Positions 1,651-23,790 of a DNA stretch of 24,572 bases are shown piece by piece. The stretch lies in IMG/VR virus record IMGVR_UViG_3300017751_000218, positions 1 through 24,572 of that record; one strand, written 5' to 3'. A program made the translations under genes and the position numbers. This DNA comes from a virus. Within the stretch, counting starts at the first letter, position 1, and each line of letters starts with the position of its first letter. A model generated the notes under the pieces. It saw only the letters and a list, made by a program, of their open reading frames with translations. It did no database searches and was not told the origin of the DNA.

Positions 1651-3702
1651 ATGAGAATAGTATTGGATGTAGAGAACACTACCACCAAGCGTGATGGTAA
1701 GATGCATCTAGATCCGTTTGAACCGGGTAACACACTGGTACAGGTAGGTATGCAAGCTGTTGATGCAGAAGATAGCGTATGCATAGTGACATTAGACCAC
1801 ACTGAACAGAAGGACACTACAGGCGCTGGGCGTAAAGAGATACAGAAGGTGCTAGACATGACCACCCTACTGATCATGCACAATGCACAGCATGACCTGA
1901 TGTGGATGTGGGAGTGTGGCTTCAAGTACGATGGTAAGATCTACGATACCATGTTGGCAGAGTACATACTACTACGTGGTGTGAAGGAGCCGCTAAGCTT
2001 AGATGCATGTGCCCAGCGCTATGAATTAGAAGTACAGAAGGATGACACACTAAAGAAATACTTTAAAGAAGGGTACAACACAAATGAAATACCTCTCGAT
2101 GAGCTTAGCTTTTATCTTAGGGCTGACCTCGGCGCAACTCGTGAGTTGTACCTCCGTCAAGAAGAAGCCTACGCCGATTCTTCCTGCGCCTCCTTACATA
2201 ACATCAGAGACATTACCTTCAAAACCTGTACCACTCTCACAAGAATGTACATGTCAGGAATCAAGGTGGATCAACCCGCCCTCCAAGAAGTACGACTAAA
2301 GTTTGAGCAAGAGAAAGCTGAGATAGAAGAACGACTACATAGACAGATTCGTGAGCTTATGGGTGACACACCTATCAACATCAACAGCCCAGAGCAAGCA
2401 TCGCAGGTACTGTTCAGCGTTAAGGTTAACAACAAGAAAGAGTGGGCTGACCTGTTCGATTACGTCAAGACACCTCAAGAGTTCAAGGATGCAGTACGTG
2501 CTAACTCTACTAAGATATTGAAAACAAAGGCGTTTACTTGCCCTGTATGTGAAGGTAGTGGTAAGACTTACAAAGTAAAGAAGGACGGTACTAAGTACGC
2601 TAGACCTAACAAGTGTAAGGCTTGTGATGCTAGAGGGTATCAACTAAAAGAAACAAACGAGATGGCTGGCTTAGGGTTCTCTGCTCCTAGTAAGAAGTGG
2701 ATCAGCGCCAACGGTTTCAGCACAGGTAAGGATAACTTAGATGCACTTATTGCTACAGCTAAAAACAATCGTATGGGAAGTGCTGCACTTTTTCTGGCTG
2801 ATCTTAAAAGGCTTAGCGCTGTTAGCTCTTATCTTTCTAGTTTCGTTGATGGCATACATACTTATACTAAGCCTGATGGATACCTTCATGTCGGCCTTAC
2901 TCAGCACATAACTGCAACGGGCAGGTTCAGTGGGCGTAACCCTAACATGCAGAACATGCCACGAGGTAACACCTTCCCGGTCAAGAAAGTATTTGTATCA
3001 CGTTGGGATGGCGGTTACATCATGGAGGCTGACTTTGCTCAGCTTGAGTTTAGAACGGCTGCATTCTTAGCGCAAGACAAGGTAGCTATGGAAGAGATCA
3101 ACACAGGGTTTGACGTACACGCATACACTGCAAAGGTTATCACTGATGCAGGTCAGCCTACTGGCAGGCAGGACGCTAAGGCTCACACCTTTGCTCCGCT
3201 TTTCGGCGCTACAGGGTACGGTAGATCTAAGGCAGAGGCCGCTTACTATGAGCACTTCAATGAGAAGTATCAAGGTGTAGCTGCGTGGCACAAGAAGCTA
3301 GGTGATGAGGCTATACGGTTACACAAGATCACTAACGTCAGTGGTAGGCAGTATGCTTTCCCTGATGTAACACGTAGAGAGAATGGCTCACCTACCCACT
3401 TCACTATGATCAAGAACTACCCAGTGCAAGGGTTTGCTACAGGTGATGTAGTACCTCTTGTGTTGATAGAGCTTGAGGCTAGACTAGAGAAGCTGCAGTC
3501 CTGTGTAGTTAACAGTGTGCATGACTCAATGGTAGTAGATGTCCACCCAAACGAGAAGGAGTATGTGCTTGCAACTATAGATACATTGAATAAAGATCTT
3601 GACAATCTTATCGAAGAAGCGTATGACATACAGATGAACGTACCTCTACTACTAGAGGCAAAGATTGGCCCGAATTGGCTTGACACAAAGGACGTTATAT
3701 AG
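1651..3702 (+). CDS. polA: Family A DNA polymerase with 3'-5' exonuclease and DnaJ-type zinc knuckle
   Basis: Phage replicative polymerase of the Pol I/T7 gp5 family, 683 aa. Exonuclease motifs: Exo I D6/E8, Exo II N78..D82, Exo III Y155..D159, so proofreading should be active. Polymerase motifs: TGRFSG and NPNMQNMP (423-437), motif A with Asp461 (ADFAQLEFR), O-helix R506..K510..F514..F518, and motif C H624-D625-S626. Position 762 (E. coli numbering) is Phe; position 766 is Phe instead of the usual Tyr; motif C reads HDS instead of the usual HDE. Between the two domains is a zinc knuckle with Cys297, Cys300, Cys322 and Cys325, in CxxCxGxG / CxxCxxxG form like the central domain of DnaJ. That insert is reported for HMO-2011-type marine phages. 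AAGGAG lies about ten bases before ATG 1651. A second frame inside (2084-2299) may also be coding. Confidence 0.96.
   Translation: MRIVLDVENTTTKRDGKMHLDPFEPGNTLVQVGMQAVDAEDSVCIVTLDHTEQKDTTGAGRKEIQKVLDMTTLLIMHNAQHDLMWMWECGFKYDGKIYDTMLAEYILLRGVKEPLSLDACAQRYELEVQKDDTLKKYFKEGYNTNEIPLDELSFYLRADLGATRELYLRQEEAYADSSCASLHNIRDITFKTCTTLTRMYMSGIKVDQPALQEVRLKFEQEKAEIEERLHRQIRELMGDTPININSPEQASQVLFSVKVNNKKEWADLFDYVKTPQEFKDAVRANSTKILKTKAFTCPVCEGSGKTYKVKKDGTKYARPNKCKACDARGYQLKETNEMAGLGFSAPSKKWISANGFSTGKDNLDALIATAKNNRMGSAALFLADLKRLSAVSSYLSSFVDGIHTYTKPDGYLHVGLTQHITATGRFSGRNPNMQNMPRGNTFPVKKVFVSRWDGGYIMEADFAQLEFRTAAFLAQDKVAMEEINTGFDVHAYTAKVITDAGQPTGRQDAKAHTFAPLFGATGYGRSKAEAAYYEHFNEKYQGVAAWHKKLGDEAIRLHKITNVSGRQYAFPDVTRRENGSPTHFTMIKNYPVQGFATGDVVPLVLIELEARLEKLQSCVVNSVHDSMVVDVHPNEKEYVLATIDTLNKDLDNLIEEAYDIQMNVPLLLEAKIGPNWLDTKDVI
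2084..2299 (+). CDS. Candidate embedded Rz1-like lipoprotein (o-spanin), overlapping the polymerase gene
   Basis: A 71-codon frame lies wholly inside the polymerase gene in the +1 register relative to it. Seen directly: a basic N-terminus (MKY), a hydrophobic stretch, a lipobox LVSC with Cys22, then a lysine- and proline-rich mature part (KKKPTPILPAPP) with two more Cys (55 and 57). This is the layout of Rz1 outer-membrane spanin subunits, which are often overprinted on another gene. AGAAGGG lies about ten bases before ATG 2084. All five CTC codons of the polymerase gene fall within 2095-2283, which fits a second coding constraint. Against it: the partner gene is a replication gene rather than the usual Rz, and the polymerase shows other codon-use patches. 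It may be a chance frame or a recombined segment. Confidence 0.33.
   Translation: MKYLSMSLAFILGLTSAQLVSCTSVKKKPTPILPAPPYITSETLPSKPVPLSQECTCQESRWINPPSKKYD
2539..2625 (+). other. DnaJ-type zinc-knuckle insert in the polymerase
   Basis: Codons 297-325 of the polymerase hold two Cys pairs, CPVCEGSG and CKACDARG, about 21 residues apart. This matches half of the DnaJ Cys-rich (CR) domain, enough to bind one zinc ion. It sits between the exonuclease domain and the thumb/palm, roughly where T7 gp5 carries its processivity-factor loop; that comparison is positional only. Its role is unknown. Confidence 0.8.
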
Positions 3703-3743: not shown

Positions 3744-4577
3744 ATGAGCACAGAAGTAGCACTATCAGTAGACGGGATGAACCTAGCAGATGCTATGGGA
3801 TTCACAGCTACTACAGTACAGGCACAGTCAGACTTGTGGCGTGTAACTGCATTAGTTAAGCAAGGTATTGATGGCAAGAAGATTGTCAACACACCCATGT
3901 TTAAACTACGTAAGGGTGACGAGGAAGTGTACACTGAAACACTTAGCATGCGTTTGTTTGCTGAGCGTCAGCAGTGGACTAAGTGGGACAGTGAAGCTAA
4001 CACTACACAGAAGACAGTCTTAGCTCAGAACCTCAATGGTGACTTGAAAGATACACTAGGTGGGTTTAACTTGGGGCGTCCATCAGGTTACGTACAAGAT
4101 TGGGATGCATTACCTGAGGCAACTAAGGATATTATGCGTCGAGTAAAGCGTACCAAAGTATTCATGGGTATGCTGGGTACAGGTGACACCACTAACGAGG
4201 ATGGTGATAGCGTAGAGTTTGCTAGTGAAGTACCCTTTATCTTTGACGTTAAGAATCCTACAAGTCTCAAGTCTATGAACGCTGCTACAGGTTCACTGAT
4301 GGGCAAAGGTATTACACCTATCGAACACACCATTACTCTGAGTGGTGTTGAGCAGTCAATGCCTAACGGTAATAAGTTTGCTGAAGTAACAGCATCACTA
4401 GGTGATCGTGTAGGTTTCTCTGATGGTGACAACGAAACGTTACGTGACTTCATTGCTTGGATTGAGCGTACCAATACATGGGTGCTAGGCAAGTGGGATG
4501 AGAACAACGTAGCTAACATCTCAGCAGAAGATGCAGCCATCGTGGGTAGCATTGTTGAAGTGCAGGACTTCGAATAA
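3744..4577 (+). CDS. Putative single-stranded DNA-binding protein
   Basis: A 277-aa protein beginning MSTEVALSVDGMNLADA. No textbook OB-fold signature can be read by eye, but several points favour an ssDNA-binding protein: it sits between the polymerase and a recombination exonuclease; it has alternating strand-like segments with aromatic residues (WRVTALV, FIFDVKN); and it ends in an acidic, aromatic tail (IVEVQDFE) like the partner-binding tails of SSB and T7 gp2.5. It has its own near-consensus promoter just upstream, consistent with a protein needed in large amounts. The start is supported by AAAGGA about nine bases before ATG 3744. The stop overlaps the next ATG by one base. The function is an inference from position and tail. 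Confidence 0.55.
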   Translation: MSTEVALSVDGMNLADAMGFTATTVQAQSDLWRVTALVKQGIDGKKIVNTPMFKLRKGDEEVYTETLSMRLFAERQQWTKWDSEANTTQKTVLAQNLNGDLKDTLGGFNLGRPSGYVQDWDALPEATKDIMRRVKRTKVFMGMLGTGDTTNEDGDSVEFASEVPFIFDVKNPTSLKSMNAATGSLMGKGITPIEHTITLSGVEQSMPNGNKFAEVTASLGDRVGFSDGDNETLRDFIAWIERTNTWVLGKWDENNVANISAEDAAIVGSIVEVQDFE

Positions 4578-5437
4578 TGGAACACCCTGCTGAACTGTCA
4601 GTACATTCTTTCTTGCGTAAGGCTATAGATGGTAAAGCTTCTATGTCGCAAGAGATCATTGAGGGTGTATGCAAAGATATAGATGCAGCCTTAAACAAGC
4701 AGTTCAACAGTGGCCCACGAGATAAGTTCAAGCTTAGGATGTCTAACGTAGGGCGTCCTAAGTGCCAGCTTTGGTTTGAAAAGAATAATCCTGAGACAGA
4801 TATACTAAAGCCAACATCCTTTATGATCAACATGCTCATAGGGGATCTGGTTGAGGCTATCTTCAAAGGATTACTCAGGGCTTCTGATGTTAAGTTTGAC
4901 GATAACGATAGAGTCACCCTTGAACTAGAGGGTGGTGCTGAGGTAAGCGGTGAGTACGACATGGTGTTGGACGGTGCAGTGGATGATGTTAAGAGTGCAT
5001 CACCGTGGTCTTACACTAACAAGTTCATTGATGTAGAAACACTGGCAGCAGGTGATAGCTTTGGGTATGTCTCACAGCTAGTAGGATACGCACACGCTGC
5101 AGGTAAGAACGTTGGTGGATGGTGGGTAGTCAACAAAGGTAATGGCGAGTTCAAGTACGTCCCTGCTGCATCTGTGGACAAGGATGCTGTACTGGGTAAC
5201 ATACAAGATACGCACAACTACATCGCTAACGATGAACCATTTGAGCGTTGCTTCACGGCTGAACCCGAAACGTATAGGGGTAAGCCTAGTGGTAACATGA
5301 AGCTCAGTAAACAGTGTGGCTTCTGCTCACACAAAAAGAAATGTTGGCCGGGATTACAACCCTTGCCATCTAAAGTCTACAGAGGTGGTAAGACGCCACC
5401 AACAGTAGAGTATGTGTCATTAAACAAGGAGTACTAA
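4577..5437 (+). CDS. Cas4/RecB-like PD-(D/E)XK exonuclease with Fe-S cluster cysteines
   Basis: A 286-aa nuclease of the RecB/Cas4/AddB-C family. Catalytic residues can be read in order: Asp128 in SGEYDMVL, Asp137 and Lys139 in DDVKSAS (the D-x-K core), then Gln167 and Tyr171 in SQLVGY. Four cysteines in the family's Fe-S arrangement bracket the fold: Cys63 (RPKCQLWF) near the N-terminus and Cys247, Cys250, Cys256 (CGFCSHKKKC) near the C-terminus. In family members this 4Fe-4S cluster staples the domain together. It probably resects DNA ends for recombination-dependent replication, or degrades host DNA. Its ATG 4577 overlaps the stop of the putative ssDNA-binding protein gene. It is not linked to any CRISPR array here. 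Confidence 0.85.
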   Translation: MEHPAELSVHSFLRKAIDGKASMSQEIIEGVCKDIDAALNKQFNSGPRDKFKLRMSNVGRPKCQLWFEKNNPETDILKPTSFMINMLIGDLVEAIFKGLLRASDVKFDDNDRVTLELEGGAEVSGEYDMVLDGAVDDVKSASPWSYTNKFIDVETLAAGDSFGYVSQLVGYAHAAGKNVGGWWVVNKGNGEFKYVPAASVDKDAVLGNIQDTHNYIANDEPFERCFTAEPETYRGKPSGNMKLSKQCGFCSHKKKCWPGLQPLPSKVYRGGKTPPTVEYVSLNKEY

Positions 5438-7230: not shown

Positions 7231-9125
7231 TGAACAACTACCTACCAACAGACTATCAGAGCTTCATTGCTCTATCACGCTACGCTAAGTACTACGATGG
7301 TGAAGGCCGTGAGAACTGGGGTGCTACTGTAGGGCGCTACATACTCAACCTAGTAGACAACAAAGTAGATCAAGCTACGTCAGATGAAATACACAATGCC
7401 ATCTTGAACTTGGAAGTGATGCCATCTATGCGAGCCTTGATGACTGCTGGCCCTGCACTTGACAGGGACAACACTGCTGGGTATAACTGTAGCTATCTAC
7501 CCGTAGATGACCCTAAGTCCTTCGATGAGGCTATGTACATCTTGCTCTGCGGTACTGGTGTTGGCTTCAGTGTTGAACGGCAATACGTTAGTAAGCTCCC
7601 TGAGATCCCTCAACTGTTCGACAGCGAGACTACAATCGTCGTTAAGGATAGTAAGGAAGGTTGGGCTAAAGCTTTCAGACAATTGTTGGCACTCCTATGG
7701 GCTGGTGAAATCCCTCAGTGGGATATTGGATTGGTACGTCCTGCAGGTGCTAGGCTTAAGACGTTTGGTGGTAGAGCTAGTGGCCCAGCGCCTCTAGTAG
7801 AACTATTTAACTTTGCTATCACAACTTTCAAGAATGCACAAGGCAGAAAGTTAAGCAGCGTAGAGTGTCATGACTTGATGTGCTTTATTGGTCAGATTGT
7901 AGTAGTCGGTGGTGTTCGTCGTAGTGCTATGATTTCATTGAGTAATCTATCAGATGATCGTATGCGTCACGCTAAGTCAGGTCAGTGGTGGGAGACTGCA
8001 GCATGGAGAGCCTTAGCTAATAACTCTGTGAGCTACACTGAGAAGCCTGACATGGAGACATTCATGCGTGAGTGGCAGTCTTTGGTAGAGAGTAAGTCAG
8101 GTGAGCGTGGTGTATTCAATCGGCAAGCAAGCAAGAAGCAAGCTGAGAAGTATAACCGAAGGGATAGCAACTACGACTTTGGTACTAACCCGTGTAGTGA
8201 AATCATCTTACGGCCATACCAATTCTGTAACTTAACGGAGGTAGTTGTACGTGCTACGGATACTGTGGATGATCTGGCTAGAAAAGTTAAGCTGGCTACG
8301 ATTCTGGGAACCATTCAGTCCTCATACACAAAGTTCCCCTACTTGCGTAAGGTGTGGGCAAAAAACACAGAAGAGGAACGCTTGCTTGGTGTGTCACTTA
8401 CGGGAATAATGGACAACCCCCTAATGACCCATAAGAACAAAGGCTTGGAGAAGACACTTGAATATCTTCGTGGGATCGCTGTATCTACTAATTCTGAATG
8501 GGCTGACCGTCTTGGTATACCTGTATCTGCTGCAATTACATGCGTCAAACCGTCAGGCACGGTATCGCAACTGGTGGATAGTGCCTCTGGCATACATGCT
8601 CGCCACAGTCCCTATTATATCCGTACTGTCCGTGGTGATAATAAAGATCCGCTAACACAGTTCATGAAAGACAAGGGTGTACCTAATGAGCCATGCGTAA
8701 TGAAGGGTGATACTACTACCGTGTTTAGCTTCCCGGTTAAGTCACCTAATAAAGCAGTCACTAGGAACGATATGACAGCCATAGAGCAGCTTAAGACGTG
8801 GCTGACGTATCAACGCTCATGGTGTGAGCATAAGCCTAGCGTGACGATCTCTGTGCGGGACCACGAATGGCTACATGTAGGTGCGTTTGTGTACGAACAC
8901 TTCGATGAGATGTCTGGTGTGTCTTTCCTGCCACACTCAGATCACACATATCAGCAGGCACCTTATCAAGATTGTACTAAGGAAGAGTATCAGCAACTGT
9001 TATCTATTATGCCTAAGAGCATTGACTGGACAGAGCTTACTCAGTACGAAGATGAGGACAATACTGCAGGTAGCCAGACTATGGCATGTACTGGTGACAC
9101 ATGCGAGATAGTGGATCTGAAATGA
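7230..9125 (+). CDS. nrdJ: Class II (adenosylcobalamin-dependent) ribonucleoside-triphosphate reductase
   Basis: A 631-aa monomer-type class II reductase that makes dNTPs from NTPs using adenosylcobalamin rather than oxygen or a second subunit. Key residues: redox Cys87 in AGYNCSYL, radical-site Asn320-Pro-Cys322-Ser-Glu324 (NPCSE), the second redox cysteine Cys333 in QFCNLTEV, and a C-terminal Cys620/Cys625 pair (ACTGDTC) that shuttles electrons from the external reductant. VGGVRRSAMISLSN and KPSGTVSQL are also typical. Because cobalamin is required, the host must make or take up B12. The gene overlaps a glutaredoxin gene by four bases (ATGA), the likely electron donor. Codon use changes between about 8280 and 8650. 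Confidence 0.95.
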   Translation: MNNYLPTDYQSFIALSRYAKYYDGEGRENWGATVGRYILNLVDNKVDQATSDEIHNAILNLEVMPSMRALMTAGPALDRDNTAGYNCSYLPVDDPKSFDEAMYILLCGTGVGFSVERQYVSKLPEIPQLFDSETTIVVKDSKEGWAKAFRQLLALLWAGEIPQWDIGLVRPAGARLKTFGGRASGPAPLVELFNFAITTFKNAQGRKLSSVECHDLMCFIGQIVVVGGVRRSAMISLSNLSDDRMRHAKSGQWWETAAWRALANNSVSYTEKPDMETFMREWQSLVESKSGERGVFNRQASKKQAEKYNRRDSNYDFGTNPCSEIILRPYQFCNLTEVVVRATDTVDDLARKVKLATILGTIQSSYTKFPYLRKVWAKNTEEERLLGVSLTGIMDNPLMTHKNKGLEKTLEYLRGIAVSTNSEWADRLGIPVSAAITCVKPSGTVSQLVDSASGIHARHSPYYIRTVRGDNKDPLTQFMKDKGVPNEPCVMKGDTTTVFSFPVKSPNKAVTRNDMTAIEQLKTWLTYQRSWCEHKPSVTISVRDHEWLHVGAFVYEHFDEMSGVSFLPHSDHTYQQAPYQDCTKEEYQQLLSIMPKSIDWTELTQYEDEDNTAGSQTMACTGDTCEIVDLK

Positions 9126-17116: not shown

Positions 17117-17560
17117 TTATTTAGTGAAACCTGCACCGAAGTACAAGCCTATGATTGCTGATACTATGTGTGTATCTAGTGGAGTGATTACAAAGCCTTG
17201 TGCTGTGCGCCACTGTACTGTCTCTGCTGGTCCGAATAGCCAGTTCCAGAAACCGCCAGTTGCTTCTGTGTAGCCTACGATCACACCAACCTCAGGATAC
17301 CACACTGCTACTAGCTTTGGCAAGACAATAATGCTGAATACTGCAGATAAAGCTATAAGTCTACGTGTCCAAGCGAAGTGCTTGTCGTTCTTACCTGCAT
17401 CTCTAGCTGCGTTAACTTGGTCTGCTTTGAAGCTTGCTGTCTGGAGCATCATCTTCTGTTGCTCTAGTTTGTTCTTTTGGTTCTGCCCAATGACAGACAT
17501 CACCCCACCTAACACAGTAGAGAAGAGCATGGTTATGAGTTCTAAGGGTAAGCCAAACAT
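17117..17560 (-). CDS. Holin-like membrane protein (3-TM, GTA-release holin type)
   Basis: A 147-aa protein with three hydrophobic segments: residues about 5-23 (LELITMLFSTVLGGVMSVI), about 67-86 (RLIALSAVFSIIVLPKLVAV) and about 122-143 (FVITPLDTHIVSAIIGLYFG). A charged, Lys/Gln-rich helix lies between the first two. The layout fits the 'holin of 3TMs, for gene-transfer release' family found in alphaproteobacterial phages and GTAs. Such proteins open the inner membrane so the lysin reaches the wall. It lies directly downstream of the lysin gene, with one base shared (TAATG), which supports a lysis role. Confidence 0.6.
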   Translation of the reverse strand: MFGLPLELITMLFSTVLGGVMSVIGQNQKNKLEQQKMMLQTASFKADQVNAARDAGKNDKHFAWTRRLIALSAVFSIIVLPKLVAVWYPEVGVIVGYTEATGGFWNWLFGPAETVQWRTAQGFVITPLDTHIVSAIIGLYFGAGFTK

Positions 17561-19020
17561 TAGTTACTCGCTATTCTTGTATCAGGCCTTGCTCTAGGAC
17601 GAATGGATGCTAAAGGATCAGGTACAGAGGATAGGTTAGTAAAAGCATCTGCTACTAAAGAAGTATATTCATTACCTAGAGTGCCAAAGGCATCTTTACC
17701 TGATACACCTGTGTATAACCACTCCTCTGCAGCAGTAGCTCCCTGATTGTGAGCATACCCTAATACCCCAAGTTTTTCTTTTTCAGACATACTTCTGTAT
17801 GCTCCTGAGTTTTTAGTTAAGTGCCTATGGTTTTGTAAGGTATACTTTTTAAACAATTCATCTTGCTTTTTATTATCCTGCAATAGTGCTTCTCTTTTTC
17901 CGTAGTCATACTTTACGTCTGCCAGAGCGGATTTACCCATTTGATAGCGGCCAACGTAGTGATCGTTTGCCCCTCCCATTATATTATATCTACCACTACT
18001 TTCTTTTTGAGCTACTGCCTCTTTAAACACTTCAAAGTTTGAGTCGGATATATTTTCTACTTTAGCATCGGGTTTTGGTGGGTCAGGGTATTGAACAGCT
18101 TCATTAGATCTAATAACAGTTAACACTTCAGGTGTAATGATACCTGTTACTTCTAAACCGTTTGCTTTTTGAAATTTACGCACTGCTCGTCTAGTACCTC
18201 CTCCTAATTTACCATCAGCAGCACCCGCTTTAAACCCTAGATCGTTTAAAGTTTTCTGTGTACTTTTTATTCTTTTTACCTCTTTAACTTCTTCTTTAGG
18301 TGGTTCAAAGTCATCATCTCTTATCTCTCCTTTAGAAAGGGGTAATACCCCTTCCGCTACAGGCCTACTACCAAGCCCAGCGCTGGGCAGTTCTTTATCT
18401 AACAACTCATTGCTACGTGTATCTAACTCAGGTGCATCTTCATCATCTAGAGCAGGTAGATCTCTAACATCACCCTGTGAATCAAATCTATCAAGCCTTG
18501 TATCAGTACTAACAGTAGGCTGTGTGTCAGTCTGCTTAGATGTCATGCCTCTAGTAAGACTGGCGGCTCTCATATCTAAACTACTATCTTTCGCAGAACT
18601 CTTCATCTTTGATAGGGCTGCTTCAGCGTCTTTGAAGTAGTTACCTTTAAGATCTTCACCTACAGGTATTTTTATCTTGTCTGGCTCTGGGCTTTCTATA
18701 GCCATAGCTAGAGCATCCATAACACTAAGACCTGCTCTCTGTATGTGCTCTGAGGTAAACGTTAAGGGGTCATAGGACTTCTCAACAAATGCAGGTGCTC
18801 TAGAGCCTCGCTGTGCAGCAATAGCTTTCATGAATTTATTAACAGCAGCTTGACTACTAGGTGCTTCCGTTTCAGTAGAGGCTTCTGCAGGGGCGCTTGT
18901 ACCTGCTCTACCTGTCATAGCACCTAAACCTTGAGGTGGCTTCTCAACAGCTTTATCTGCATCAAGCCCCCCTAAGATGTCAGCTATTAAGGCATCATAT
19001 GCTGCGCTTGTCATAGTCAT
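17560..19020 (-). CDS. Peptidoglycan-binding, lysozyme/transglycosylase-like lysin
   Basis: A 486-aa protein. The longer frame up to 19122 would overlap the previous gene; ATG 19020 has AAGGA seven bases upstream and begins just past that gene's stop. The first ~240 residues are low complexity and Asp/Pro/Ser-rich. Residues about 249-305 form a PG_binding_1 domain (TQKTLNDLGFKAGAADGKLG...TRRAVRKFQ). Residues about 325-470 resemble a lysozyme-like/SLT domain: putative catalytic Glu340 in QKESSGRYN, then GRYQMG and LGYAHNQG. It would cleave the wall glycan, either in lysis (the holin-like gene is next) or from the virion at entry. The long disordered N-terminus favours a virion-carried enzyme; the holin neighbour favours an endolysin. 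Confidence 0.8.
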   Translation of the reverse strand: MTMTSAAYDALIADILGGLDADKAVEKPPQGLGAMTGRAGTSAPAEASTETEAPSSQAAVNKFMKAIAAQRGSRAPAFVEKSYDPLTFTSEHIQRAGLSVMDALAMAIESPEPDKIKIPVGEDLKGNYFKDAEAALSKMKSSAKDSSLDMRAASLTRGMTSKQTDTQPTVSTDTRLDRFDSQGDVRDLPALDDEDAPELDTRSNELLDKELPSAGLGSRPVAEGVLPLSKGEIRDDDFEPPKEEVKEVKRIKSTQKTLNDLGFKAGAADGKLGGGTRRAVRKFQKANGLEVTGIITPEVLTVIRSNEAVQYPDPPKPDAKVENISDSNFEVFKEAVAQKESSGRYNIMGGANDHYVGRYQMGKSALADVKYDYGKREALLQDNKKQDELFKKYTLQNHRHLTKNSGAYRSMSEKEKLGVLGYAHNQGATAAEEWLYTGVSGKDAFGTLGNEYTSLVADAFTNLSSVPDPLASIRPRARPDTRIASN

Positions 19021-19036
19021 AGTGTAATCCTTATTA

Positions 19037-22000
19037 TTATACAGGTAGAATGTTATCGATAAGATTAGAAATAAACTTAGCTGCACCTGCCTCAAGTATA
19101 TTACTGCCTGCATCACTTCCACTAGAGTCAGCCTTTACTTTAGCTACTACTAAAGCTGTATCTCTCTCCATTACGTTTTCTGAAGACTTCCAAGCAAAGT
19201 TCATCAAGTCACGCTCTTGTTGCCATAACTCATTTAAAGCTGTCATAGTCAAGTTGTTAGCTGCCATAACCTCAGTCATATTAGCTTCATTAAGTGCTGC
19301 AGTGTTAGCTGTAGCTACACTCTGACGCCACACGGTGTTAGCTTGAGCAATCACAAGTTCATTAGAGGCGTTGAATATATCACGTTGGTTATCAAGCTCA
19401 GCTTGGAACTTAGTCATAGAGTTCTCTTCACCAGCGTTAAACTGCTCCATAGCATTAGCTTGTGCTGTATTGAATTGCTGTACCTGTGTAGTCATGCTAT
19501 CATAGAACTGATTGACTTGGTTGATACTCTCAGCATTGAACTGTAGCTGAGCATTCTCTGCAGCTTGATCTGAGAAGATGCTTTGCACTAATGACTGAGC
19601 TTCAAACATAACAACCTGTTGCTCATTATCTAAGTTAGCCATGTCCATCTCTAGGAAGGCTTGTGCTTGCTGTGCTGCAGCTTGTTGGTTATTGCTAAGG
19701 TTAGCCATGTCAACATCACTTAGAGCAGCACAGTCAGCTAACAGCTTAGCTTGTGCATTAGATAAGTTAGCTAAGTCTACAGTCTGTGTTAGTTGTGCGT
19801 TCTGTAAAGCACGAGACTGCTCAGCAGTGAAGTTCATGTTAGCTACTTCAGCAATACGCTCAGCTTTAATAACGTTTGATTGCTGTTTATTGCTAAGCTC
19901 TTGGCCTTTCATAGTAGCTTCAATCTGAGCATTAGCTAGTGCAGTCTGCTGACGGCTAGAGAGGTTCTCTACGTCAATAGTCATCTTGTTGCTCATGTTA
20001 AAGATACGAGTCTGCTGTTCGTTGTTTAGCTCAATGCCACGCTCAGCTACTTGATTAGAAATGTTAAACAGAGCAGTCTGTTGTTTGTTGTCTAATACAC
20101 GACCTTCCATAGCAGCCTTAGCTACAGCATCTTGAATGAACGCTTGTTGCTTGTTTGTAGCATCCTGCATGTTAGTTTCAAAGGCTTGTGTACTTTCTAG
20201 CACAGCCATTTGTTGCTCGTTAGTCAACTCTTGACCCATCATAGAAGCTTGCACTTGCAAGTTAGATAAGGCTGTTTGCTGTGAGTTAGACAGGTTAGCC
20301 ATCTCTACTTCTAAGTTCTGCGTAGACTTAAGCAATGTAGTTTGCTGACGGTTAGTCAAGTTGATGTCGTTCACTGCAGCGTAACGTGCTGCATTAGATA
20401 GCGCTACGTTAGCACTGATGCTTAGCTCCTGCCCTTGTAGTGAGGCTTTAAACCCCGCCATAGCAAGGACAGCTTCTTGCTCATTAGATAAGTTCTGCAG
20501 TTGTAAGTTAGCATTGTTCATGCTGTTCTGAATACGTACAGCTTGTTCGTTAGACAGGTTAGCTAACTCAAAGTTCTGTGCTGCTGCAGCGTTAGCTAGA
20601 GCTACGGCTTGCTCATTACGAACATTCTCCATGTCCATAGCTGCAAAGGTAGCAGCATCCTGCTGTGCAATAGGTAATGCACTCTCTATAGTGGCTTGTG
20701 CAATAGCAGCCATAGCCATAGAGCTACCACCTAAACCACGAGCAGTCATGGCAGCATTAGCTTTACGTAGAGCACCAGCAGCCCATGCAGGTGTGCCATC
20801 ATTGAAGGAAGCCATAAGCTTCTCCATCTGACCTTGCACAGTAGCGTTGCCTGATACAGTACCCGTAATAGATTTAGCTTCTAGTTGCTGGCTAAAGGTA
20901 GCTGTAGCAGCCTTAGCTGTAGATGCTTCATTCAGAGCTTCAAGTGTTTTAGCTGTAACGATAACTTCTTCGTTGTTTAAGATGTCGTTAATGTCAGCTA
21001 TTTCGTCTTCACCTACAGTAGTCTCTTCTGCAGTTACATCAGGTACGTACTCTGATTTCTTCTCTGGGGCAGTAGCGTATTCGTCAAACTTAGCAGCATC
21101 TTGTATTGCGCTCTCTTCAACCTTAGCTACCTCAGTTGGCGGTAGATCGTAATCTACTTCAGCAGTAGCTTTAGGAGTCTCCGTTTCAAACTCTGCAGCT
21201 TCAATCTCGTCTGGTGCATCTGCTGTTACTTCTTCACTTGTAGTGTACGAATCAAACTTAGCCGCAGCAGGGTACTGCCTTTCGTCCTCTTCTAAATCTC
21301 CTACTACAGTACCTGTCTCGTAAGCTTTCTGTACTGCTGCACCTGCTTGCTCATATGCAGCTTTAATATCTTCATAGGCTGCTGTATTACCTGTAGCTAA
21401 TGCATTTGCCATACCTGCTTGCATACGGGTACGTTCTTCATTTATGCGAACTACATCATCTTCTGTTAGTATTACGTTATAAGAGTCTAACTTAGCTGGG
21501 TCTTTGAACTCACCTTGAAGCTGAGCTAAATCACCGGGCGTCATATTAGCCGCTGTCATTTTAGCGTCTTCAGATAAAACGCCTACAGCCGCAGTTACTT
21601 TTTCAACTTCCGTTCTTACGTCATCTATAGAAGTCTTAGCATCGTATGTCTCAGCACGGCCAGCTATAGCATCTTGCTCAATGCGAGCATGTACACCAGC
21701 TACGGCCTTGTCGTATTCTGTTTTCTCTGCGTCACTTATAGTACCCCCTAAAAGGCGCTGAAAAAGAGTTAGCGAAGGAGGTTCAGGCATAGGGTACTTA
21801 GCAGCTTTCTCTTCTTCAGTTAAGCCATCTAAGTAAGCTAGGGTAGCTTTAACTGCAGGATCCTCTACTGCATCTGCAGCTTGTGCTTGCTTAACTAGAA
21901 GTGAAGCGGCTGTTGCTACCTGTCCAGTACCTTCATCAATAAGCTGGTTGTTCTCTACCTTCAAGCCATACACGGTAGGTTGTGATAATACAGAACTAGG

Positions 22001-23523: not shown

Positions 23524-23790
23524 TTATTCATTTCTGTCTGCCATCTTTTCTACTGATGATCTTATTGCTTTTATGTTTTCGTCTATACGTGCTAGTGATA
23601 CTGCTTGTTCATGTACCGAAGTTTCTATACGGGCCATGCGTTGTTGTAAGGACATGATGTCATCTCTGTTAGCTTCAATATCAGACATCATCATACTAAC
23701 TGTCCATACGATAGCTGCCCCTTGAACAAGTAAGCCAAAGATCAGTGTAATCGGTACAGACTTGCTCAAGTGCCAGCTATCTTCAGACAT
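23524..23790 (-). CDS. Membrane-anchored coiled-coil protein, possible i-spanin
   Basis: An 88-aa protein with a short N-terminus, one membrane span (residues about 13-35, VPITLIFGLLVQGAAIVWTV) and then a continuous helix with heptad-like spacing (MSLQQRMARIETSVHEQAVSLARIDENIKAI). This N-in anchor plus periplasmic coiled coil is the form of Rz-type inner-membrane spanins, although 88 residues is short for one. No lipoprotein partner overlaps it; the only lipobox frame found in the window is inside the polymerase gene at 2084-2299. Its start overlaps the previous stop by one base (TAATG). A plain structural role is also possible. Confidence 0.7.
   Translation of the reverse strand: MSEDSWHLSKSVPITLIFGLLVQGAAIVWTVSMMMSDIEANRDDIMSLQQRMARIETSVHEQAVSLARIDENIKAIRSSVEKMADRNE

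Follow-up and report, generated by a model that had tools for sequence, protein, structure and literature searches.

Lysis genes overprinted on other genes are already known, as with Rz1 in Rz of phage lambda. In phiX174, which has no spanins, the lysis gene E is overprinted on D, an essential and unrelated gene, and the E product acts by inhibiting peptidoglycan synthesis. Spanins act only once the peptidoglycan is gone. A 2018 survey sorts two-component spanins into three architectures, i.e., embedded (within the i-spanin gene), overlapped and separated, and reports periplasmic Cys residues in the i- or o-spanin of 507/528 pairs, the commonest pattern being none in the i-spanin and two in the o-spanin (PMC6139136).

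The window, i.e., the whole 24,572-nt stretch of viral DNA analysed here (IMG/VR record IMGVR_UViG_3300017751_000218), encodes on its (+) strand a family A DNA polymerase of the HMO-2011 type (polA, 1651-3702, 683 codons; Pfam DNA_pol_A, 1.1e-49; DNA_pol_A_exo1, 4.6e-6), whose product has a DnaJ-like CXXCXGXG insert. The closest polymerases are those of the cultured roseophages CRP-603, CRP-2 and CRP-207 (72-76% identity; 75.8% for CRP-603), followed by CRP-1, CRP-345 and HMO-2011 (58-59%). In the +1 frame of polA lies a second ORF with a lipobox, at 2084-2299 (+), exactly as the first-pass annotation had described it, encoding 71 aa (translation MKYLSMSLAFILGLTSAQLVSC followed by TSVKKK...). 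The SD-like AGAAGGG claimed upstream of its ATG is present at 2067-2073 (+), with 10 nt between motif and start codon. A tblastn search with the 71-aa product gave significant matches only in CRP-603, CRP-2 and CRP-207 (49-54%), all inside annotated polymerase genes, and the nested gene is without annotation in all three cultured carriers. IMG/VR supplied another 80 polA loci; a search there with the nested protein as query found 34, and among these no free-standing homolog outside polA was seen. A pattern derived from the family profile located 378 stretches whose products are related to the nested protein; in bacterial genomes no relative was confirmed, 10 pattern matches being unconfirmed.

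For comparison across relatives, 100 unique full-length polA genes were aligned by codon, and a non-redundant set of 58 was defined at <95% nucleotide identity, 51 of which have an open nested frame. The pattern of these 51 supports assignment of the product as a lipoprotein. The predicted signal peptide (residues 1-21, 2084-2146 (+)) is recognised from the alignment by an M-K/R start and a hydrophobic core, the latter preceded by K/R in a pattern-based reading. The lipobox LVSC follows at 2138-2149 (+), with the predicted lipidated Cys22 encoded at 2147-2149. It reads LVSC in 31 of the ORFs, LAGC in 5 and LASC in 4, with others in the remainder, so that the pattern is L-[VAGWT]-[SGAN]-C with Leu-3 and Cys invariant (51/51). 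The residue at +2 is Ser in 35 and Thr in 16, and never Asp; the sorting rule by which absence of Asp at +2 directs a lipoprotein to the outer membrane is established for E. coli and is assumed for the host of this phage. The mature domain (2147-2296 (+), about 48 aa) is Pro-rich, with 15.5% Pro across the family, and contains the conserved P45 and P48 as well as an ECTC motif (2246-2254 (+)) with the putatively periplasmic Cys55 and Cys57, which are invariant in 51/51. Thus, five residues are invariant in the alignment, L19, C22, C55, C57 and S60, and family members have two or three Cys besides the lipidated one. No significant match to the nested protein was found in Pfam or PDB.

Like lambda Rz1, the nested gene is wholly contained in the +1 frame of a second gene, and its predicted product is of the same short, Pro-rich outer-membrane lipoprotein type with Cys-Thr/Ser after cleavage. 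However, Rz1 is embedded in the i-spanin gene Rz, whereas the nested gene lies in a DNA polymerase gene, which places it outside the embedded lambda-class architecture. In addition, the mature domain of Rz1 has one Cys, whereas that of the nested protein has two, and similarity is limited to the lipobox, the only part of the nested-family profile that aligned to Rz1. The T4 genes PseT.2/PseT.3 are separated spanins away from holin and endolysin, as the nested gene would be, and thus provide a precedent for its location outside the lysis cassette; in contrast to the nested gene, they do not lie within a gene of other function, and they form a known i-/o-pair. The u-spanins (T1 gp11 type; CRP-345 gp68) share the lipobox, but they have a C-terminal TMD, which is absent from the nested protein, and the families are not homologous. 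In being a putative lysis gene that shares its DNA with an essential gene of unrelated function, the nested gene also resembles phiX174 E, although the host gene of E is no polymerase. None of the surveyed architectures (PMC6139136) accommodates an o-spanin that overprints an unrelated replication gene, and in the papers searched no case was found of a replicative DNA polymerase gene carrying an overprinted lipoprotein or probable o-spanin. This is in line with the suggestion that a spanin nested in a replicative polymerase would be a new arrangement, with the o-spanin role taken as probable.

The first-pass annotation had proposed that relatives be checked for +1 stop codons, loss of the lipobox Cys and synonymous constraint. 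Across polA codons 145-209, the +1 frame is open in 91/100 genes (51/58 of the non-redundant set), whereas it was open in only 0.5% when synonymous codons were shuffled within each gene, and none of 3000 synonymous-codon shuffles of the window polA produced a lipobox-bearing ORF of 60 aa or more nested in the sense direction. Over codons 144-212, synonymous change between tree-adjacent pairs of ORF-bearing sequences is reduced to O/E 0.66 (z = -13.9), with local minima at codons 146-170, i.e., the signal-peptide region (0.56), and at codons 186-210, i.e., the C-terminal motif (0.57). The nine broken-frame sequences showed an O/E of 1.10 over the same codons, and requiring an open frame in other parts of polA produced only mild dips (O/E 0.88-0.90, z -2.2 and -2.6). 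The zero count of stop-creating changes within the ORF was set aside as evidence, as the sequences had been selected as open. The check proposed in advance thus did not refute the claim, and every one of the 51 lipobox Cys residues is retained.

A synonymous dip by itself was not accepted as proof, since dips of z about -7 occur elsewhere, and evidence at the level of single codons was required. The third positions of polA codons are the second positions of nested codons, so that the nested protein fixes the codon choice of polA. Thr at polA codon 163 is ACT in 51/51 (background 0.26), yielding the Leu at lipobox -3, while Thr at codons 192 and 189 is ACC in 50/51 and 48/51 (background 0.15 for each), yielding Pro in the nested protein, and these locked ACC codons are the source of P45 and P48. 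Ala at codon 210 is GCC in 40/40 (background 0.11). Cys55 (polA codon 199) survives a Met-to-Leu change in polA because only CTG/TTG are used. At polA codon 204, changes among Ile, Phe and Val leave a nested Ser intact, since the codons there are confined to ATC, TTC and GTC. Altogether, 18 of the 30 most biased codon columns of polA fall within the 69-codon nested stretch. The codon counts given earlier were also accurate: all five CTC codons lie inside the stretch (2095, 2128, 2152, 2236, 2281), as do four of the seven GCC codons (2167, 2173, 2188, 2278).

The start signals are retained as well. An AAGG/GAGG/AAAGGA-type motif at equal spacing is found in nearly all ORF-bearing relatives, and SD together with an ATG/GTG start is kept in 43/51 non-redundant ORFs. 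The start codon is ATG in 42, GTG in 1 and ACG in 8; in the last group, initiation must rely on an ATG further downstream or on a weak start. Open-frame conservation, a constraint found only within the ORF and only in lineages that carry it, the kept +1 residues and the kept SD and start together support very strongly, at the level of sequence, that 2084-2299 is a real, selected protein-coding gene, in agreement with the dual coding first proposed.

The best-supported function for this gene is that of an Rz1-like o-spanin, which we regard as probable. Of the original spanin proposal, the lipobox and the Pro-rich domain stand and are joined by the two invariant Cys residues and by complementarity with the u-spanin described below; the position of the gene in the replication module counts against the role. 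Taking export, pairing and lytic role together, we consider it likely on balance that an overprinted o-spanin is made from the polA mRNA. Translation would begin inside polA, at a nested ATG (2084) served by its own SD, and would continue in the +1 frame as far as 2299. The resulting protein would be exported, cleaved and lipidated at Cys22, and the Ser/Thr at +2 would let it reach the outer membrane, where the Pro-rich domain with C55 and C57 would form disulfide-linked dimers and pair with an inner-membrane i-spanin. The complex would be harmless until the endolysin removes the peptidoglycan and would then fuse the inner and outer membranes, finishing lysis. The expression level, outer-membrane location, dimerisation, i-spanin partner and lytic role are parts of the scheme that we infer. 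Both polA and the nested gene lie in the replication module, on the strand opposite to the late genes, so that the nested gene is probably expressed early; early synthesis of a spanin is tolerable in the current model because its action waits for peptidoglycan removal.

Searches for other lipoproteins covered ten carrying genomes or fragments (G001, G002, G003, G061, G062, G064, CRP-603, CRP-2, CRP-207 and the window), in which the nested ORF is the only SD-bearing candidate; with the SD filter dropped, CRP-207 and G002 each show one further short lipoprotein. In CRP-207 (MZ892987), this is an unannotated ORF at about 52956-53165 (-) (MWVKLI..LLAGCTTITYTASC..) that overlaps the start of gp75, and its counterpart in G002 lies at 1651-1860 (+); the ORF is conserved between both and has no recognised SD. 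Family members of the nested protein weakly matched eight PHROG families, three of which are Rz-like spanins (best E 0.0013); these matches are only suggestive and could partly reflect signal peptide and composition.

No i-spanin adjoins the nested gene. A candidate partner is the 88-aa product of 23524-23790 (-), which has an N-terminal TMD, a coiled-coil-like tail and no Cys, and which weakly matches phrog_739 (Rz-like spanin, E=0.043) and phrog_689 (holin, E=0.006); a homolog is present in the lysis cassette of G006. With two Cys in the nested protein and none in this candidate, the putative pair would be like that of T4, in which the o-spanin has two and the i-spanin none (PMC6139136). TMD/coiled-coil candidates occur in most carrying genomes (gp76 in CRP-603, gp72 in CRP-2 and gp73 in CRP-207) and differ between them, none being found in G062, and such proteins likewise occur in the u-spanin genomes CRP-345 and G006. 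Elsewhere in the window, 17560-19122 (-) encodes an endolysin-like protein with a PG_binding domain (Pfam PG_binding_1, 6.5e-16; phrog_5867 endolysin, 1.9e-25), and the adjoining 17117-17560 (-) encodes a multi-TM protein in the TMD scan (phrog_38283, function unknown), which by position may be holin-like. In CRP-207, gp73 (L120:39744-40325 (-)), annotated as 'putative lysozyme', appears to consist of an N-terminal TMD and a long coiled coil, and a lysozyme-type match was absent in Pfam and PHROGs.

The distribution of the nested ORF was compared with that of a u-spanin. In CRP-1 and CRP-345, both with a broken frame, a lipobox protein with a C-terminal TMD adjoins an M15-type endolysin. This family (PHROG 30566, function unknown) has loci beside M15-type endolysins in CRP-1, CRP-345 and related contigs (L121:36316-36657 (-), L122:36191-36556 (-), L135:2485-2883 (+)). 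Only the CRP-345 member (gp68) carries a spanin label, being annotated as a spanin2 family protein. The u-spanin is present in nine polA-bearing records (CRP-1, CRP-345, G006, G054, G029, G030, G032, G035 and G036, with G006 and G054 near-identical in polA), in all nine of which the nested frame is closed, and it was found in 0/31 ORF-bearing contigs of 16-56 kb, many of which are fragments. On the tree, the nested ORF extends across an inner clade and is missing from the outgroup of HMO-2011, CRP-1 and CRP-345; three losses have occurred (L048; L054-L056; L063/L068). The L063 lineage lies inside the ORF-bearing clade, has lost the ORF and carries the u-spanin on a long contig, where it shares a cassette with an endolysin, a TMD/coiled-coil protein and a two-TM protein. 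For the L054-L056 and L048 losses, no replacement spanin was seen in the available sequence, and neither nested ORF nor u-spanin was found in HMO-2011. The mutual exclusion thus amounts to about two independent contrasts, one swap and one ancestral difference, and is suggestive rather than conclusive. In the sister phages CRP-1, CRP-345 and G006, the u-spanins probably fill the role of the nested protein.

The main rival to the o-spanin reading is an early lipoprotein with another role at the envelope, most plausibly superinfection exclusion by receptor blocking. The lipoprotein Llp of T5 blocks the receptor against further phage in this way, and the early position in the replication module, the small size of the lipoprotein and the lack of an adjacent i-spanin would all suit such a function. 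However, a Pro-rich mature domain with two invariant Cys suits o-spanins, the ORF is distributed in complement to the u-spanin, and carriers would be left without a recognisable o- or u-spanin. Moreover, the C-terminal motif is strongly conserved in the 51-protein alignment, whereas receptor-blocking proteins usually vary with the host receptor. We therefore consider exclusion unlikely, and o-spanin activity the better account. Some other action of the +1 product, e.g., in regulating lysis or in altering the sorting of host lipoproteins, is more improbable still; it draws on the fact that coding is certain while function is deduced, with no Pfam or PDB match to guide it, and is countered by the spanin-like anatomy and the u-spanin complementarity.

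A constraint on RNA or DNA (a structure or regulatory site) or on local codon use, rather than on protein, would find its parallel in two other genes of the window. Synonymous O/E falls to 0.65-0.77 (z about -6 to -7) at 4697-4801 (codons 41-75) in the gene 4577-5437 (+) and at 8430-8549 (+) (codons 401-440) in RNR, and neither dip has a consistently open overlapping sense frame. In RNR, a 65-aa ORF in the +1 frame (8458-8655 (+), TTG start, two predicted TMDs) is probably due to chance, the frame being open over codons 398-445 in 3/33 relatives. In polA, by contrast, the dip is twice as strong, does not extend past the ORF and is missing from sequences with a broken frame, a given +1 residue is preserved by differing synonymous and nonsynonymous solutions (Cys by TTG/CTG, Ser by ATC/TTC/GTC), and frame, start and SD are all kept, which makes a constraint on nucleic acid very improbable.

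Mosaic recombination importing foreign codon usage with an incidental open frame, which the first-pass annotation had kept as a live alternative, is scarcely credible: the 99% identity of the 23524-23790 protein to that of G005, against 73% for polA, is evidence of mosaic exchange in the group, but the ORF and its codon choices persist clade-wide, over polA identities of 70-100%, and the ORF was lost three times independently rather than imported once. On this breadth and on the constraint, recombination is rejected as the cause.

Moreover, the CTT-rich stretch (about 2750-2910) on which that alternative was based may be a second overprinted ORF, coinciding with 2741-2911 (+) in the +1 frame of polA, which encodes a strongly hydrophobic 56-aa product with a hydropathy about 3 SD above codon-shuffled controls. 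An SD-like AAGGA precedes its ATG, the frame is open in 36-37/58 non-redundant relatives (about 62%), and synonymous O/E at polA codons 360-385 is 0.74 (z -5.3) only where this frame is open. However, conservation does not extend to its start, no constraint is seen on its tail and similar dips occur elsewhere without an ORF, and it is therefore rated as possible and as less certain than 2084-2299. A further, tentative and rather doubtful idea is that polA is a triple-coding hub, with the o-spanin and a single-TM holin-like or i-spanin-like gene at 2741-2911; if so, part of the lysis module would be hidden in a replication gene, with lysis proteins made alongside DNA polymerase.

HMO-2011-type phages are a dominant and broadly distributed marine group (PMC9038755), and a spanin is unmentioned both in the main genome paper of the group and in the RCA phage paper. 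The nested lipoprotein is probably the missing spanin of this large group of ocean phages. Its gene, overprinted on that of a conserved enzyme and repeatedly lost, offers a clean natural example of such dual coding. This also suggests that a spanin gene may lie hidden in another reading frame in some phages that have been counted as lacking one.
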